IMG/VR virus record: IMGVR_UViG_3300046009_012300 | Coordinates: 1 to 21,392 of that record | Direction: 5' to 3' (one strand) | Length of the DNA stretch: 21,392 bases | Source: a virus | Shown: positions 1 through 18,472 of the stretch, piece by piece | Position numbering within the stretch: the stretch's first letter is position 1 | Layout: each line of letters starts with the position of its first letter | Program-made: the position numbers and the translations under genes | The notes under the pieces: generated by a model | Told to the model about the DNA's origin: nothing | Databases searched by the model: none | The model's input: only the letters and a program-made list of their open reading frames with translations

Positions 1-375
1 CGCCAGCTCCTTGTCCAGGAACGCGGCGTGCTCGCGGGCGTCGTAGGCGAGCACCTTCGCGTCGTTCGGGTTCGAGAACATGAGCGAGAGCTGCCGGTGC
101 GTCTTCGCGCCGGAGAACGCGCGGACGAGGTTGCCGTCTAGGAACGTGAAGATTCCGGGGAACATGCGGAACTGGAAGCCCGGCGTCACCTCGGAGCCGT
201 CAGCGCACGGGACGCCGACGAAGGTCACGTCCGGGTTCGCGCCCTCGATGTCGCGGAGGACGGGGGCCATCTGGTCGCAGTTTGGGCATCCTGCGGGCTT
301 GTAGAACTCGACGACGAGCCTGCCGGGCGTACCGGCGACCAGCTCGCGGACCTCGGACGGTTTTGCGGTTCTCAT
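1..375 (-). CDS. Thioredoxin-like protein with CPNC active site (C-terminus cut by window edge)
   Basis: The 125 visible residues read as a thioredoxin fold. After a short helix comes a beta strand (LVVEFYKPAG), then the redox motif C-P-N-C at residues 30-33, a helix (DQMAPVLRDIEG), a second strand (VTFVGVPC) and the family's cis-proline loop (MFPGIFTF), followed by a strand with the usual turn (LDGNLVRAFSGAK). Thioredoxins use CGPC, DsbA CPHC and glutaredoxins CPYC, so CPNC is compatible with disulfide exchange but does not fix its direction. No signal peptide is visible, so it probably acts in the cytoplasm or is carried in the virion. The ATG lies 9 bp after the fibre gene stop, suggesting the same transcript. 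An ATG 8 bp further upstream is followed at once by an in-frame stop, so the start at 375 is favoured. The fold is clear; the partner is inferred. Confidence 0.85.
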   Translation of the reverse strand, partial: MRTAKPSEVRELVAGTPGRLVVEFYKPAGCPNCDQMAPVLRDIEGANPDVTFVGVPCADGSEVTPGFQFRMFPGIFTFLDGNLVRAFSGAKTHRQLSLMFSNPNDAKVLAYDAREHAAFLDKELA

Positions 376-384
376 GCGCGCATT

Positions 385-3132
385 CTAAACCCCGACGAGG
401 AACCAGCCAATGCGGGCGTCGTAGGTGCCGGAGCAGCCGGAGTAGTAGGTCGTCCCCTCGCACGTTCCCTGGTCGCCGATGCCGGTGCAGCTCGCGTGGC
501 CAGAGCAGGTGGAGGAGCCGGAATCCCACGAGCAGGCGGACGTGGTGACGGAGCAGCCGGTCTGGGCCGCGCACGCGCCCTCGGAGAGGCCGGAACACGA
601 GCGGTTGTCGCGGGCAGCCTGGAACGTTGCCTTGTCCTTGTAAGAGGGCAGCGTGTAGCTGGTGGTGCCGAACCCGACCGAATCGGAGCCGGTCGGGAGG
701 ATGTTCACGTCCGCGCCGGACGACGAGGCGTTGACGAACGTGACGGTGCGCCCGAGGACGCCGGACGCCGCCGGGAGCGTGACGTTCATGGCGGTCGACC
801 ACGTGCAGCCGGTCTCCGCCGCGCACGTACCGCTGGACGAGTAGCCGCCGCAGGCGACCGTGCCGGAGCAGGCCGCGCCGTAGGTGCCGGTGCAGTTGCC
901 CGTCTCGTAGCTGCCGGTGCATGAGTAGCTGTCGTAGGTGCCGGAGCAGGACGTGAACCACGAGCCGCCGGAGCAAGCGCCCGAGCCGGAGTCGTACTCG
1001 CAGAACGAGCCGCCGTTCGCGCCGTTGCAGGCGGTGCCGTCGCCGCCGCCGTCTGAGTAGTTCGAGCAGGAGTCGGTGTTCGTCGAGCACCCTGACGTCG
1101 CGTTGCAGGCCGACTCGTCGAAGCCGGAGCAGTCCTGCGGGTTGTTGGTCCAGGAGCACCCGGTGTAGCCAGAGCAGCTCATCTCGTCGAAGCTGGAGCA
1201 GGACGCGGTTTCCACGGAGCAGCCTGACTGCCCGGCGCAGCTGGACGGGTCGCCGTTGAACGCGGAGCACGGGTTGCCCGCGAACCAGACGCACGGGAGG
1301 TGCGACTCGCAGGTCGCCTGGCCCGAGCCGGTGTAGGTCGAGCAGGCCGTCACCGACGGCGTTCCGGTGCAGGTCGGGGTGCTGGCGTCGCAGAAGTACG
1401 TGCCCATGTCCCCGGCGGTGAAGCTCTCGAACTTGAACTCGTACCCGAGCGCGAGGCCGCGCGCCGAATGGAGCGTCGTGTGCGCCGCCGAGGTCGAGCC
1501 CGCGTGCACCTTGTCCCCGAAGCTGCCGAAGCCGTAGTGGACGAAGCCGGACGAGTACAGGTACGCGGCGAGCGTGTTGCTGGTGAGGCCGGAGTTGCCC
1601 GAGTACCAGGCGGCCCCGTTGCCGCCGGAGAAGTACGTGTCGATGCCGCCGGAGCTGTTCGCGCCGACGGCGACGCGGAGCAAACCGCCGAAGCGGTAGT
1701 CCGTCCAGGTGTAGCTGTCTGAGTTGTTGAATGTAAACGCGCGCGTTGTGCCCGGCGTGCCGTTGCCCCATCCGCCATCAACGTTGACGCCGCCGGTGTG
1801 CAGGTTGGCGCGGGTGTTCGTGCCGGTCATCGGCACGAGCGACACGTCGTCAATCGATAGGCGCGAGGTGTTCGACGGCGTGAACGAGAGCGCGGCGGTC
1901 GAGGTCGCCACGAAGCGGCACTCGTGTACGCCGTCACCGGAAACGGCGGGGCAGGTGAAGCCGCCAGCCGACGGGGTGACGGTGCCGGCCGTCCATCCGG
2001 AAACGGTGTATCGCAGGCGGTACTCGCGGGTGATTTGCGTCGTCGCGGTGCTCTGCGAAAGCGGGGTCGTGCCGTTGGACGACTTGACCGCCTTGCCGCC
2101 GGACAGCGCGAACGAGCCGAACGACCACCCAGAGGACGAGGTGAAGCCGCCGTTGGTTACCACGTCGGTGCCGGTGGTCGAGAAGATGGACAGGCGGTTG
2201 AGCGAGTCGTCGTAGTAGAGGCCAGCGTTGTCCTGGGACAGCAAACCAGCCGCACCGAAGAACGGCACGGAGCCGGGCGTCATGGAATTGAAGTTCCACC
2301 CGCCGTAGGCCGTCGCGTTAACCCCGCCGCCCTGGCCGAACGACAGGACGTTGCCGCCGGACTGGTTCTGGAGGTTCCCGCCGCCGGAGCCGTGCGCCCG
2401 GAGCCCGGAACCCTCGAACGAGTACGAGCCGATGTCCACGTCGCCGGTCGCGCCGGTGTACGGGACGAGGCCGGACGTATCGCCGCCGGTCGACACGGTC
2501 ACGTTCCCGTTGGGGTCCGGCTCGGCGCCGTTGACCGTCTTCACCACCTGCTTCGCCAGGAGGAAGGACGTGCGCTTATCGAGCACGCCGAGCGCGAACT
2601 TTACCTTCTCGTCCATTTTGCCGCCGGTCTCGAACTTCGGAAGGTCGAGTCGGTCCGCGGAGATTTTCTTCGAGGACTCGTTCACCTTGTCGACGACCTC
2701 GTCGGGGGTGATTTGGGTGCCGTCTCTACCAGGAAGGCCGGGGGCGCCGGGGATAGGCTCGGGAACGGTGACGAGCGCGGCCACCTCCTCGGCGGTCGGT
2801 ACGGCCTTGAGCACCTCGGGGATGACCCGGTCGATGATTTCCTCCTCGTCGGCGTCGGCGCCCGGCTCGCCGGGGTCGCCTTTAGGACCCCTGAGCGCCT
2901 CCGTCTCCTCCGGGGTGAGGTCGTAGGTGAATTCTATATCGGAAGGCTTTTTTTTTACTTCGTCAAGGATTTCGCCGGCCGCGGCGCTGACGGCGGCGAC
3001 CACCTCGTCGGACGCGTTAGCGATTTCGCCGGAAAGGCGCTGGGAAACCTCGCCAATTTTGACGTAGGCCGCCTGGGCGGGGTCTTTGCGCGCCAGCTCG
3101 AGCTCCGCCAGTTTCCGCAGCTTCTCGTCCAT
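385..3132 (-). CDS. Large modular tail fibre / receptor-binding protein with collagen-like and cysteine-rich repeats
   Basis: This 915-residue protein is most likely a tail fibre or adhesin. The N-terminal ~75 residues are charged and helical. Short collagen-like Gly-X-Y runs follow at residues 82-93 (GPKGDPGEPGAD) and 129-138 (GAPGLPGRDG). Residues 221-235 hold the 'LVPYTGATGDVDIGSY' module common in environmental phage fibres. Residues 322-434 resemble a carbohydrate-binding module (NGGF...W start, SLVP end). Residues ~450-575 are Gly/Ser/Tyr-rich beta repeats. The C-terminal beta domain (MNVTLPAASG...WFLVGV) carries two cysteine-rich blocks, 581-776 and 846-900, holding 33 of the protein's 35 cysteines. 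The gene is last but one in the visible late block, as expected for a fibre. Its leader shows no strong ribosome site. Fibre identity is inferred from architecture and position; the receptor is unknown. Confidence 0.8.
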   Translation of the reverse strand: MDEKLRKLAELELARKDPAQAAYVKIGEVSQRLSGEIANASDEVVAAVSAAAGEILDEVKKKPSDIEFTYDLTPEETEALRGPKGDPGEPGADADEEEIIDRVIPEVLKAVPTAEEVAALVTVPEPIPGAPGLPGRDGTQITPDEVVDKVNESSKKISADRLDLPKFETGGKMDEKVKFALGVLDKRTSFLLAKQVVKTVNGAEPDPNGNVTVSTGGDTSGLVPYTGATGDVDIGSYSFEGSGLRAHGSGGGNLQNQSGGNVLSFGQGGGVNATAYGGWNFNSMTPGSVPFFGAAGLLSQDNAGLYYDDSLNRLSIFSTTGTDVVTNGGFTSSSGWSFGSFALSGGKAVKSSNGTTPLSQSTATTQITREYRLRYTVSGWTAGTVTPSAGGFTCPAVSGDGVHECRFVATSTAALSFTPSNTSRLSIDDVSLVPMTGTNTRANLHTGGVNVDGGWGNGTPGTTRAFTFNNSDSYTWTDYRFGGLLRVAVGANSSGGIDTYFSGGNGAAWYSGNSGLTSNTLAAYLYSSGFVHYGFGSFGDKVHAGSTSAAHTTLHSARGLALGYEFKFESFTAGDMGTYFCDASTPTCTGTPSVTACSTYTGSGQATCESHLPCVWFAGNPCSAFNGDPSSCAGQSGCSVETASCSSFDEMSCSGYTGCSWTNNPQDCSGFDESACNATSGCSTNTDSCSNYSDGGGDGTACNGANGGSFCEYDSGSGACSGGSWFTSCSGTYDSYSCTGSYETGNCTGTYGAACSGTVACGGYSSSGTCAAETGCTWSTAMNVTLPAASGVLGRTVTFVNASSSGADVNILPTGSDSVGFGTTSYTLPSYKDKATFQAARDNRSCSGLSEGACAAQTGCSVTTSACSWDSGSSTCSGHASCTGIGDQGTCEGTTYYSGCSGTYDARIGWFLVGV
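433..597 (-). repeat. Cysteine-rich repeat block 2 of the fibre protein
   Basis: Residues 846-900 of the fibre contain 8 cysteines in the same pattern as block 1: C-S-G-L-x4-C-x5-G-C-S, then C-S-W and C-S-G-x2-S-C, ending in a C-S-G-T-Y-D unit. The block lies between KDKATFQAARDN and RIGWFLVGV, which read as adjacent strands of one beta domain. Confidence 0.75.
805..1392 (-). repeat. Cysteine-rich PSI-like repeat block 1 of the fibre protein
   Basis: Residues 581-776 of the fibre contain 25 cysteines. The recurring unit is C-S-x-[FYL]-x(3-6)-C-x5-[GP]-C-[STV]-x(4-6)-C, for example CSSFDEMSCSGYTGCSW and CSGFDESACNATSGCS. The second half changes to shorter C-[ST]-G-[ST]-Y units (CSGTYDSYSCTGSYETGNC). 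The pattern resembles PSI/plexin-type disulfide repeats; that resemblance is by eye only. Confidence 0.75.
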
Positions 3133-10109: not shown

Positions 10110-10826
10110 TTAGCGGAACCTATTCTGACGCGGGCGGATAACCGTCGCCGAATCCCGGCCGCGCTTGGCGGTGAACTTCTGCAGCGACTTAATCTTCGCG
10201 TCGGCGCGGGCGCGCAGCGACGGGGCGGTCTCCATGTTGTTGTCCTCCGCGTAGCAGGCGGACGCCTCGAGCGACACGGCCTCGTGGTGCGCCGCGTCGA
10301 AGCCGGGCACCTTGGTGGTGTCGGAGTACGCGAACGACCCCGCCTTGCGGCGGAAGTAGACGACGAGCCCGGCGGCGTAGTCGTAGTTCGGCGTCGGGTA
10401 CAGGAGGATGTTGGCGCCGCGCAGGTCGAAGTAGCGGGGGATGCCGCCGCCGTCCATGAGCTCCTCGGGGTCACCCTTGAAGCTGTCCAGGCCTACGCGC
10501 TTGAGCTCGTACCCGTTGCCGGCGCTGTCCTTGGCGACGACCTTGTCGACGACGATGTGCGACGTGTCGAGGCTGTACTGCCTCTGGCCGTTCATGATGG
10601 CGGTGCGGCCGACCGGCTGGGTCGTGTTGTTGGCGTCGTCGAACTCCCAACGGCCGTCGGACATCAGCAGCGCCACGGAAACGGCTTCCATGGCGCGGTT
10701 GATGTAGTTGGCGAACGTCTTCAGGCGGGTGGTGTCGCCGGAAATGTAGCCGTAGTTAGCGGAGAACAGCTTCCGCTCGCAGTCCTGGACGAGGCCGTCG
10801 TAGGTCGATGTGTCGCTGAATTGCAT
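10110..10826 (-). CDS. Head-tail adaptor / connector candidate
   Basis: This 238-residue protein has helical termini and a beta-rich centre. It begins with a helical part (YDGLVQDCERKLFSANYGYI, then KTFANYINRAMEAVSVALLM) and continues into strands (GRWEFDDANNTTQPVGRTAI, GIPRYFDLRGANILLYPTPN, AAGLVVYFRRKAGSFAYSDT). It ends in a helix-turn region (HHEAVSLEASACYAEDNNME) and a basic tail (RPRQNRFR). The phrase 'I-P-x-Y-F-D...I-L-L-Y-P-T-P' is familiar from adaptor or gatekeeper-type proteins encoded after the capsid gene in podovirus-like genomes. The C-terminal helix with basic tail fits docking on the portal ring. The adaptor call is based on these features and on its place between capsid and tail genes; no catalytic residue is involved. 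Confidence 0.55.
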   Translation of the reverse strand: MQFSDTSTYDGLVQDCERKLFSANYGYISGDTTRLKTFANYINRAMEAVSVALLMSDGRWEFDDANNTTQPVGRTAIMNGQRQYSLDTSHIVVDKVVAKDSAGNGYELKRVGLDSFKGDPEELMDGGGIPRYFDLRGANILLYPTPNYDYAAGLVVYFRRKAGSFAYSDTTKVPGFDAAHHEAVSLEASACYAEDNNMETAPSLRARADAKIKSLQKFTAKRGRDSATVIRPRQNRFR

Positions 10827-10856: not shown

Positions 10857-11258
10857 CTAGGACTTTTTGGCCTCTTCCGGGGCCTCGTCGAGCGCGTCCC
10901 TGTGCGCCTTCTCGAGGTTCAGGCGGAACTCCTCGACGCGGTCGTAGATGACCAGGATGACCTTGCCGTCCTGGAGCATGACCTCGCGGGTGTCCTCGGT
11001 GAACTTGAGGAGCGGCTTGAACTTGGACACGACGTAGCCGCGTACGCGGTCGTCGGCCTTCTTCAGCTTCTCCTGCAGCTTCGCGAGCTCGGCGTTCTTG
11101 CCCTCGATTTCCTTGGAGAGCGCGCGGCCCTGGTCGATGATTTCCTTGCGCTTCGAGAGGTCGTCGAACATCTGCTTGGAGCTGAACTCCACGACGCGCT
11201 CGTACGGCTTTAGGTTCACGACCGACTTGCCAGGAGCCTGCTGTACTCGTTTTCCCAT
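10857..11258 (-). CDS. Coiled-coil protein of unknown function (133 residues)
   Basis: A basic N-terminus (GKRVQQAPGKSVVNLKPYER) is followed by a long charged helix with clear heptads (IIDQGRALSKEIEGKNAELA, KLQEKLKKADDRVRGYV), a short beta segment (REVMLQDGKVILVIYDRVEE) and a final helix ending DEAPEEAKKS. Its ATG lies inside the end of the glycosyltransferase gene (43 bp overlap) and has a ribosome-site-like AAGG 7 bp upstream. Placement before the adaptor gene suggests a minor structural or assembly-chaperone role. No family is recognised. Confidence 0.7.
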   Translation of the reverse strand: MGKRVQQAPGKSVVNLKPYERVVEFSSKQMFDDLSKRKEIIDQGRALSKEIEGKNAELAKLQEKLKKADDRVRGYVVSKFKPLLKFTEDTREVMLQDGKVILVIYDRVEEFRLNLEKAHRDALDEAPEEAKKS

Positions 11259-12283
11259 AGTTGTGCCTTATCGGCGATGTTGTAGTTCTTCGTAACGTAG
11301 CGCCGCGCGGCCTTTCCCATCTTCCGCCGCGTCCCGACGTCCTTCAAATTTTCGTACGCTTTCACCCAGTCGTCAAGCGTGAGGCAGACCTCCATGTACG
11401 GCTCGTCCGGCCCCTGGTACGGGGAGCGGCCGTCCGAGAACCCGGAGGCGATGACGGGAATCTCGAGCATCGACATCTCGAGGAACTTCACGTTCGACTT
11501 GCAGCGGTTGAAGTAGTTGTCGGTGCGCGGGATGAGCGCCGCGTCGAGGTCGAGCGACAGGAGCTTGTGCGGGTAGTCGGCGTTGGTGACCGGCTGGTGC
11601 ATCTCCGCGCCGACCGACTCGAAGAAGTCGTGCATCTCCAGGTACAGGCCCGTGAGGACGCCCTCGAGGCGGTCGCGCCGTTGCAGGCCGAGGACGACGA
11701 GCTGCGCCTCGCTCCCGACGCGCTCGAGGAACGGCTTCACGACCTCCCAGTCGCCGGTGGACGCCACGGAGCCGACGATGCCGAGCCGCAGGCGCTCCCG
11801 GTCCGGCTTATCCTCCGGCTCCGGCCAGTCCTCGGGGTCGACGCAGTTCGGCAGCACCACGACGTTCGGGTGGACCTGGCGGTACTCCGCGGCGAGCGTC
11901 TCGGTCGTGCAGGTCACGAGGTCGGCCTCGCGCAGCGCCTCGTATATTTTGGCGTTCCACTTCGCGAGCATCTCGGCCTCGCGCGGGCCGAAGAACTTGC
12001 CCATCGGGACGCCGGACGCCGGGACGTACGTGTCGTCGTTGTCGAACACCACCTTCTTCCCGGCGCCCTTGAGGAGCTTCATCAGCTCGATGCGCGCGTC
12101 GTCGTCCGGGCGGTGGAATACCACCACGTCGGCGTGCGCCGCCAGACGGGCCGCCTCGGTCAGCGGCAGCATCTTCCCGCGGAGCGTGTCGCGCGTGCCC
12201 CACCAGCCGCGCTCGCGCAGCGGCAGCAGGCACCGCACGTAAAAGCAGCCATCGTACTTGGAGCCGATGAAGAAGACGCGCAT
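11216..12283 (-). CDS. GT-B fold glycosyltransferase (GT4-like)
   Basis: Measured from the ATG that overlaps the upstream TAA, the protein has 355 residues and two Rossmann-like halves. The N-terminal half starts MRVFFIGSKYDGC and includes DVVVFHRP (52-59), KVVFDNDDTY (77-86) and the linker VVVLPNCVDPEDW (141-153). The C-terminal half starts LRLGIVGSVASTGDWE (165-180) and carries the nucleotide-sugar-binding region KSNVKFLEMSMLEIPVIASG (262-281), the place of the E-x7-E signature in GT4 enzymes; here E269 and E274 are spaced differently. It probably transfers a sugar from a nucleotide donor in the cytoplasm. Lying between the capsid gene and adaptor genes, it may modify a virion protein, although cell-surface glycan modification is also possible. 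An in-frame start further upstream would overlap the 38-residue gene and is less likely. Confidence 0.85.
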   Translation of the reverse strand: MRVFFIGSKYDGCFYVRCLLPLRERGWWGTRDTLRGKMLPLTEAARLAAHADVVVFHRPDDDARIELMKLLKGAGKKVVFDNDDTYVPASGVPMGKFFGPREAEMLAKWNAKIYEALREADLVTCTTETLAAEYRQVHPNVVVLPNCVDPEDWPEPEDKPDRERLRLGIVGSVASTGDWEVVKPFLERVGSEAQLVVLGLQRRDRLEGVLTGLYLEMHDFFESVGAEMHQPVTNADYPHKLLSLDLDAALIPRTDNYFNRCKSNVKFLEMSMLEIPVIASGFSDGRSPYQGPDEPYMEVCLTLDDWVKAYENLKDVGTRRKMGKAARRYVTKNYNIADKAQLWENEYSRLLASRS

Positions 12284-12399
12284 TAGCCCTTCTTGCGCTT
12301 CGGCGGCGCGACGACCTCGCCGGGGTTCTTGCCGACCCACGTGCGCTGCGGCTTCAGTCCGGGGGCGATGACGACGGGCGGTAGCGGTTGGTTTTCCAT
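12283..12399 (-). CDS. Pro-rich basic mini-protein (38 residues) coupled to the glycosyltransferase
   Basis: This ORF begins MENQPLPPVVIAPGLKPQRT and ends VAPPKRKKG. It contains eight prolines and a basic tail and has no predicted domain. Its TAA shares bases with the ATG of the glycosyltransferase (TAATG), so the two are probably translated together. The start lies 34 bp beyond the capsid terminator and 7 bp after a TACAAT element, which could make a nearly leaderless transcript. Codon use resembles its neighbours. It could be a small virion protein, a glycosyltransferase partner or a leader peptide. Confidence 0.6.
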   Translation of the reverse strand: MENQPLPPVVIAPGLKPQRTWVGKNPGEVVAPPKRKKG

Positions 12400-17540: not shown

Positions 17541-18047
17541 CTACTTGTCCTCGGCGACCAGCTCCTTCGCGACCTCCACGAACTCCGGGTTCTTGTCCAG
17601 GAGGTAGGTGAGGAAGATTTTGACGCCGTCGTCGGTCAGGATGTTGTCGCCGTTGGTGATGCCAGCCTTGCGGTAGGTCTTGAACGGCTCTTTGGTGAGG
17701 AACAGCTTGAACTTTTCCATGGTTTCGCTCTCGTTAAGTTTAAATCGTCTCGGTGACAAATTGCTCCAGTTTACTGCGCTCCAGTCGACTGGCTCAACGG
17801 TCAGTTCGCCGATACATGACTGGATGGTGTCCGTAGTCAGCGCCGGCGGCTCGGGCTCCGCCGTGTGGCTGCGCGACACTACCGAGTAGTCGTCTAATCC
17901 CTCCACCCACCACACTCCTGTACTCGGGTGCCTAATCTGTTCAGCAGTACCGTCATCGCACAGGCTCGCCACCTCTGCGCCTACCCAGAAATCGAAGCCG
18001 CACCAAGAGCCAGATATTATGTCTCCTACGTGTACCTTGTGCCTCAT
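17541..18047 (-). CDS. Unknown 168-residue protein, possibly with an in-frame 59-residue short form
   Basis: No family is recognised. The N-terminal ~60 residues look like a compact beta-rich domain (KVHVGDIISGSWCGFDFWVG, then GTAEQIRHPSTGVWWVEGLD and DYSVVSRS). A polar linker follows to about residue 108. The last 59 residues (from MEKFKLFLTKEPFKTYRKAG) form a helical unit resembling short stand-alone phage proteins with a 'KTYRKAGxTxxxxxLTxxGxxIFL' pattern. The start at 18047 is supported by a 4-base ATGA overlap with the HNH gene. An internal ATG at 17720 has GAGAG upstream and a possible promoter (17768-17797), so a separate short product is plausible. An intrinsic terminator lies 18 bp downstream of the stop. 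Confidence 0.6.
   Translation of the reverse strand: MRHKVHVGDIISGSWCGFDFWVGAEVASLCDDGTAEQIRHPSTGVWWVEGLDDYSVVSRSHTAEPEPPALTTDTIQSCIGELTVEPVDWSAVNWSNLSPRRFKLNESETMEKFKLFLTKEPFKTYRKAGITNGDNILTDDGVKIFLTYLLDKNPEFVEVAKELVAEDK
17768..17797 (-). promoter_or_regulatory. Possible internal promoter for the 59-residue short form
   Basis: On the minus strand TTGAGC (17792-17797), an 18 bp spacer and TAAACT (17768-17773) each match four of six sigma70 consensus bases. A transcript would start about 40 bases before the internal ATG at 17720, with an A/T-rich leader unlike the surrounding GC-rich coding sequence. Confidence 0.3.
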
Positions 18048-18472
18048 GTTCTGCCCTTGCGGGCCAGCCAATTAACGCACCGGGAACGTAGCGGCGCAAG
18101 CCGCTTATCCACAGCCCGGCCCAGGAGCAGCAGGCGGGCCTTGAGGACGTGCCAGGCCACCCGGGCCACGTCGCGCGCGGAGAAGAGGCTGCCCTTCTCG
18201 AGGTTGCAGCGGAAACAGGCCGCCACGAGGTTCTCCGGTCCGTCCGAGCCTCCCAGTGACGCCGGCTTCAGGTGGTCCACGGTCGCCTTCCGGGCGTCGA
18301 ACGCCCTGCCGGTCTTGACGCCGCAGTAGAAGCAACGCGAAAGGTCGCCCACGGACTTACGCCGGGCCCGCTTCTCCTCGATGGACCGCGCCCGCTCGCT
18401 CTGCTCCTTCGCCGAGCCGCACCACAGCGGCACGTTCCTCCTGGCGCGGGACACGTCCCCTAGGTCTTTCAC
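18044..18472 (-). CDS. HNH homing-type endonuclease
   Basis: HNH nucleases next to terminase genes are common in tailed phages, and in some systems they are needed for terminase cutting. This 142-residue protein has a basic helical N-terminus (ARSIEEKRARRKSVGDLSRC) and the zinc and HNH core: C47-x2-C50, then D66-H67 (ATVDHLKPASLGG), N81 (PENLVAAC), and C86-x2-C89-N90 (CFRCNLEKG). Four cysteines would bind structural zinc, while H67, N81 and N90 form the metal-dependent active site. A GTG start is used; no ATG is available in this frame before the domain and an in-frame stop lies 9 bp upstream of the GTG. The stop overlaps the next gene (ATGA). It may be a packaging factor or a homing element. 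Confidence 0.85.
   Translation of the reverse strand: MKDLGDVSRARRNVPLWCGSAKEQSERARSIEEKRARRKSVGDLSRCFYCGVKTGRAFDARKATVDHLKPASLGGSDGPENLVAACFRCNLEKGSLFSARDVARVAWHVLKARLLLLGRAVDKRLAPLRSRCVNWLARKGRT

Follow-up and report, generated by a model that had tools for sequence, protein, structure and literature searches.

Why does a phage place a thioredoxin-fold gene directly behind the gene of a fibre whose tip is crowded with cysteines? The question is raised by the stretch of DNA analysed here (the window, meaning all 21,392 bp of IMG/VR record IMGVR_UViG_3300046009_012300, which is linear and incomplete). On its minus strand the genes run in the order terminase large subunit (17455-16022), portal, major head protein, tail genes, fibre and thioredoxin; a glycosyltransferase gene lies between the head and tail genes (11216-12340, minus; phrog_7162, E 5e-33) and an HNH endonuclease gene upstream of the packaging genes (18044-18472, minus; PF01844, E 7e-10). 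A preliminary description had reported a CPNC thioredoxin-fold gene starting 9 bp past the stop codon of a fibre gene with 35 cysteines, and both the spacing and the cysteine count were recovered. The range that it gave, 1-600, does contain the thioredoxin gene, and also takes in the last ~71 fibre codons; it left unmentioned that the thioredoxin is incomplete, its ORF being open to the first base of the window and hence truncated after 125 codons with the C-terminus missing. The features concerned are:

1..375, minus strand: thioredoxin-fold gene, ATG at 375, 3' end missing at the contig end, at least 125 aa, with PF00085 and fold matches
277..288, minus strand: CPNC active-site motif, thioredoxin residues 30-33, both cysteines invariant in 16 relatives
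157..159, minus strand: Pro73 at the thioredoxin cis-proline position (Met-Phe-Pro), invariant in the alignment
376..384, minus strand: 9-bp gap from the fibre stop codon (385-387) to the thioredoxin start
385..3132, minus strand: tail-fibre gene, 915 aa, 35 cysteines, 48% identical to the fibre of relative L029 over 727 alignment columns
805..1392, minus strand: fibre cysteine block 1, residues 581-776, preceding the conserved VTLPA strand (sequence, alignment)
598..804, minus strand: canonical fibre C-terminal beta segment (VTLPAASG..GR..N.SS..V.I.P..TSYTL..YKD), flanked by both cysteine blocks
433..597, minus strand: fibre cysteine block 2, residues 846-900 (sequence, alignment)

The window protein matches the Thioredoxin family PF00085 with an E-value of 3.1e-9 and 37.2 bits, above the cut-off of 23.5, while thioredoxins of the CPYC group (see below) reach 20.7 bits, just under it. 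Its AlphaFold2 model (m685625c3bf5a; pLDDT 88, pTM 0.79) matches 379 PDB chains at E <= 0.001, these being solved thioredoxins, with TM-scores that lie at about 0.65-0.72 when scaled by query length and reach as much as 0.85 when scaled by target length (single-domain thioredoxins). The model and the alignment together recover the beta-alpha fold, with a helix from residue 31 at the CxxC and an invariant P73; all 16 aligned thioredoxins share the CxxC cysteines and the cis-proline, although identity is otherwise low. A single-sequence search gave no viral relatives of the window thioredoxin, and the deposited phage records gave a single distant match.

The cysteines of the window fibre are strongly concentrated: residues 581-900 contain 33 of them, against two in the whole of residues 1-580. 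The N-terminal part carries short collagen-like Gly-X-Y stretches (GPKGDPGEPGAD, PGAPGLPGRDG; window 2700-2900, minus). The C-terminus follows the pattern '..VTLPAasg..GR..n.ss..v.i.p...tSyTL..ykd....W', with block 1 inserted ahead of the VTLP strand and block 2 ahead of the final Trp strand. This segment resembles what we take to be a common type of phage fibre tip, and in the relative L072 it occurs without cysteine blocks. An alignment of 19 fibre-domain sequences has 32 columns with cysteine in at least 85% of them, and a CxxC is found in none of the 19, which favours disulfides, about 16 in number, over zinc or iron-sulfur sites. On this pattern the 32 conserved cysteines probably form about 16 disulfides, and a metal-binding cysteine domain is unlikely. 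The structural model of the fibre domain is of moderate quality (pLDDT 76, pTM 0.45), and a fold search with the domain gave no significant match; the best weak matches (E 0.01-0.1) were to phage tailspike and baseplate proteins, which is consistent with a fibre tip without being proof of it. Neither the window fibre nor the fibre domain and thioredoxin of L038 had a match in 50,697 deposited phage records, and 84,980 species genomes of bacteria and archaea, scanned twice, yielded no relatives of the fibre domain at the sensitivity used.

The preliminary description had linked thioredoxin and fibre by adjacency; the link now extends to pairing across contigs, presence/absence controls and joint transfer. 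Scans of IMG/VR with the fibre domain recovered 27 further contigs holding the domain together with the fibre stop codon, or 28 with the window, and in 27 of the 28 a same-strand thioredoxin-fold ORF starts at most 1.2 kb downstream of the cysteine fibre (that of L033 being counted via the scan with thioredoxin queries). The distance is 2-18 bp in most contigs, but a few reach as much as 1,168 bp, and one or two genes separate the pair in L013, L037, L038 and L040. The sole exception, L039, has a full cysteine domain and no thioredoxin in its 39.2-kb record (G001), which is probably a complete, circularly permuted genome because each of its two ends carries a part of the capsid gene. The 42-kb record of L029 (G003), both ends of which contain the same part of the thioredoxin, also looks like a complete circularly permuted genome. 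Reverse scans with CSFC and CPYC thioredoxins, which reach mainly close relatives of the queries and are not a census of all phage thioredoxins, returned 29 loci. Where 190 bp or more of sequence preceded them, these thioredoxins stood behind cysteine fibres only; the preliminary description had held that such enzymes beside fibres lacking cysteine blocks would speak against the link, and none was found. Three of the loci were new contigs with a clear domain match (L042, L048 and L053); the upstream match in L046 covers the end of the domain only, is weak (E 4e-4) and was left out of the counts, and L062 has only 63 bp upstream of its thioredoxin. In all, about thirty uncultured phages carry the thioredoxin-like gene with the cysteine-rich fibre tip.

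Presence and absence in relatives follow the same rule. A portal-protein scan gave 80 loci of one phage group, 32 of which cover the whole stretch between the portal and a conserved marker gene further downstream. Among these 32 the thioredoxin is present in all four phages whose fibre has the cysteine block and in none of the 28 with other fibres, where no ORF of 85-260 aa with an early CxxC lies between portal and marker gene (Fisher p 2.8e-5; with portals merged at 95% identity, 3 versus 22 clusters, p 4e-4), a comparison that the preliminary description had proposed as a check. The portals of L114 and L130 cluster with that of L098 at 80% identity or more (single-linkage), yet both phages have an ordinary fibre and no thioredoxin, and in L114 the gene that normally stands behind the thioredoxin directly follows the fibre. 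In the lineage of the window, L144, L145, L148, L149 and L150 (about 10 kb of downstream sequence available) lack both genes and the syntenic L029 has both. On the strength of these controls, chance adjacency of the two genes is rejected. A setting in nucleotide metabolism, likewise named beforehand as evidence against a role in the fibre, is rare: of 15 records, a single one has a ribonucleotide reductase, and there it lies ~12 kb away from the thioredoxin.

Furthermore, the two genes seem to travel together. The L002/L005 phages share only 24% identity in the portal and 45% in the terminase with L007, while their fibre domains are 75% and their thioredoxins 74% identical, and over 16 pairs the fibre-domain and thioredoxin distance matrices are correlated (Mantel r 0.73, p 5e-5). 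Fibre domain and thioredoxin therefore appear to have been inherited and exchanged jointly, moving as a cassette. Five kinds of thioredoxin stand beside cysteine fibres: CPYC (most), CSFC, CPHC (L012), the CPNC form of the window and a CPNC relative in L029, which is 31% identical to that of the window over 110 columns. With no more than 17-29% identity between the window thioredoxin and the other groups, parallel recruitment is possible. The CPYC, CSFC and CPHC groups have C-terminal helices, and four thioredoxins, those of L012, L013, L029 and L040, end in short cysteine tails (CPSGNC, CCDGCAEGNGC, CDSC and CCESCSDGGSC). Directly after the CSFC thioredoxin there is a small cysteine-rich protein in L048 (6419-6670), L042 (765-1019) and L035 (7433-7759), with eight cysteines in L048 and L042; its CEGC..CLACGCF-like pattern is possibly that of a zinc ribbon.

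Which known family, then, does the window protein belong to? It shares the fold, the CxxC and the cis-proline with TrxA (PF00085, TIGR01068) and the phrog_22 thioredoxins; unlike them it lacks WCGPC and lies outside a replication or nucleotide module. Against the TrxA equivalog TIGR01068 it scores 32 bits where the cut-off is 96.8, with GCPNC in place of WCGPC, and the TrxA-type CGPC occurs in none of the thioredoxins beside cysteine fibres. The job that we propose is the same as that of DsbA/DsbC, and L012 shares with them CPHC and an exported-type N-terminus; the window protein differs in having no hydrophobic N-terminus or signal peptide and no match to the Dsb models. Another parallel is TrbB (TIGR02738, with TraF) of F-like conjugative plasmids, also a thioredoxin-fold protein encoded by a mobile element, within an operon for a surface apparatus whose proteins include cysteine-rich ones. 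It is the dedicated disulfide isomerase of these conjugation systems and has partners rich in cysteine (PMC7555446). The thioredoxins of L012 and L038 give weak matches to the TrbB profile. However, TrbB is periplasmic and serves type IV secretion, whereas the window protein is a phage gene product tied to one fibre domain, has no match to the TrbB/TraF profiles (the best overall being 20.4 bits for L012 against a cut-off of 132) and is encoded in a phage structural module with no F-type conjugation operon. In position the gene is reminiscent of T4 gp38, Mu Tfa and gp27 of Alteromonas phage V22, small proteins encoded immediately downstream of the fibre (PMC7289586). As in that class, the thioredoxin lies just downstream of the fibre and is exchanged with its tip; no match to Tfa/gp38 or to another fibre-chaperone PHROG or Pfam family was found in the window. 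To our knowledge the T4, Mu and V22 chaperones do not have thioredoxin folds and contain no redox centre. The window protein lacks the tested features of the TrxA, Dsb and TrbB families, and the enzyme is best filed as a variant of the fibre assembly factors rather than as a member of any of the three.

Based on these observations we propose that the gene is likely to encode a thiol-disulfide oxidoreductase, an oxidase or isomerase, acting as the dedicated redox chaperone of the adjoining fibre. The preliminary description had suggested a dedicated fibre oxidoreductase, and that reading gains support from coupling in both directions, the presence/absence pattern and the rarity of ribonucleotide reductase. 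The redox chaperone is favoured because genes for fibre assembly chaperones often directly follow the fibre gene (PMC7289586), because the active-site motifs are not the TrxA-type CGPC, and because of the parallel with TrbB. According to this proposal, in which we infer the action on the fibre, the redox direction and the disulfide state of the cysteines, the fibre tip would be a phage beta domain of common type with two inserted cysteine-rich blocks, and the enzyme would be made together with the fibre and act on it in the same compartment. There it would catalyse disulfide formation or, more likely, shuffle wrong pairings so that the tip folds, thus taking the place of a fibre assembly chaperone. 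A search of 15 records for Erv/ALR-type oxidases found none, so the host would have to supply an electron acceptor. The proposal is also weakened by L039 with its thioredoxin-less cysteine fibre, by the genes that intervene in L013, L037, L038 and L040, and by the low identity of the window thioredoxin to the other groups.

Some bearing on the place of action comes from the N-termini, in which signal peptides were judged by hydropathy and by eye. The majority of these thioredoxins lack a signal peptide. The fibre of the exceptional L039 (4813-7080) has a signal-peptide-like start, MRNFLNRLIFATLFTTHLVANA-D, a trait that it shares, among the cysteine fibres, only with the fibre of L012 (5859-10025). 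The thioredoxin of L012 (10045-10635) has a signal-like start too and the motif CPHC. CPHC is the motif of DsbA, and CPYC that of glutaredoxin; the L012 thioredoxin also weakly matches DsbA models, leader included. Signal-like starts are unexpected in virion parts assembled in the cytoplasm; the fibre of L144 (after position 10448) is a further one that begins in this way. The pattern, with n=2 (L012 and L039), is a hint that the site of fibre synthesis is also the place of enzyme action, an exported fibre relying on host Dsb proteins or needing an exported helper, and it leans towards help during fibre production. The bacterial cytoplasm is normally considered unable to form such disulfides. 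A more tentative idea, which we regard as possible rather than probable, is that of a two-gene mobile cassette, made up of a hyper-disulfide receptor-binding tip and its own thioredoxin-fold redox chaperone, that builds about 16 disulfides in the bacterial cytoplasm, with lineages that export the fibre moving the enzyme to the periplasm or dropping it.

The same coupling data would fit an enzyme carried in the virion, or acting late, that opens or rearranges the fibre disulfides at the host surface as an infection trigger. There is a precedent in Agrobacterium phage Milano, whose tail and receptor-binding proteins also depend on disulfides, and whose tail disulfides must be reduced before contraction (PMC10811340); the C-terminal helices and the four cysteine tails could tether such an enzyme to the fibre. 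However, the Milano disulfides link sheath and baseplate subunits and the paper mentions no thioredoxin (PMC10811340), whereas here the cysteines lie in one fibre-tip domain. Moreover, a reductase-type CGPC is lacking, there is no electron source for the enzyme outside the cell, the signal-like starts of both L012 proteins point to joint action during biogenesis, and helpers encoded beside fibres are usually assembly factors. We therefore consider a surface reductase unlikely. Similarly improbable is a role in the cytoplasm as a reductant or holdase, keeping the cysteines reduced until lysis, after which the disulfides would form spontaneously outside. Proteins without a signal peptide would indeed work in the reducing cytoplasm, and the missing Erv-type sulfhydryl oxidase agrees with this, but host thioredoxins already do that job, CPHC and CPYC are generally held to be motifs of more oxidising kinds, and such a role would leave unexplained why L012 has an exported enzyme with CPHC. 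A non-catalytic fibre part or chaperone with the thioredoxin fold and unused cysteines is conceivable, as the use of thioredoxin by T7 polymerase shows that the fold can serve structurally; the invariance of both active-site cysteines and the cis-proline in 16 of 16 proteins of low identity makes it very unlikely. Least credible of all is an ordinary thioredoxin of nucleotide metabolism or DNA replication standing beside the fibre by chance, for although phage thioredoxins are generally accounted for as donors to ribonucleotide reductase or as factors of a polymerase (PMC4193335) and some members weakly match phrog_22 of that category, the strict co-occurrence with the cysteine fibre, the rare and distant ribonucleotide reductase and the location of all groups inside the structural module oppose it.

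A literature search found no paper describing the fibre-thioredoxin pair. The fold is an ordinary one, and it is the job, that of a fibre-dedicated thioredoxin-fold enzyme moving with its fibre, that was not found in the literature searched. Phage redox proteins are usually read as helpers of nucleotide metabolism; the recurrent, transferable pair points instead to virus-encoded oxidative folding of a receptor-binding protein. It would give an annotation rule for nameless fibres and 'thioredoxins' in environmental phages, offer a compact enzyme-substrate system for studying cytoplasmic disulfide formation, and show by what means a cell can produce a host-recognition tip rich in disulfides.
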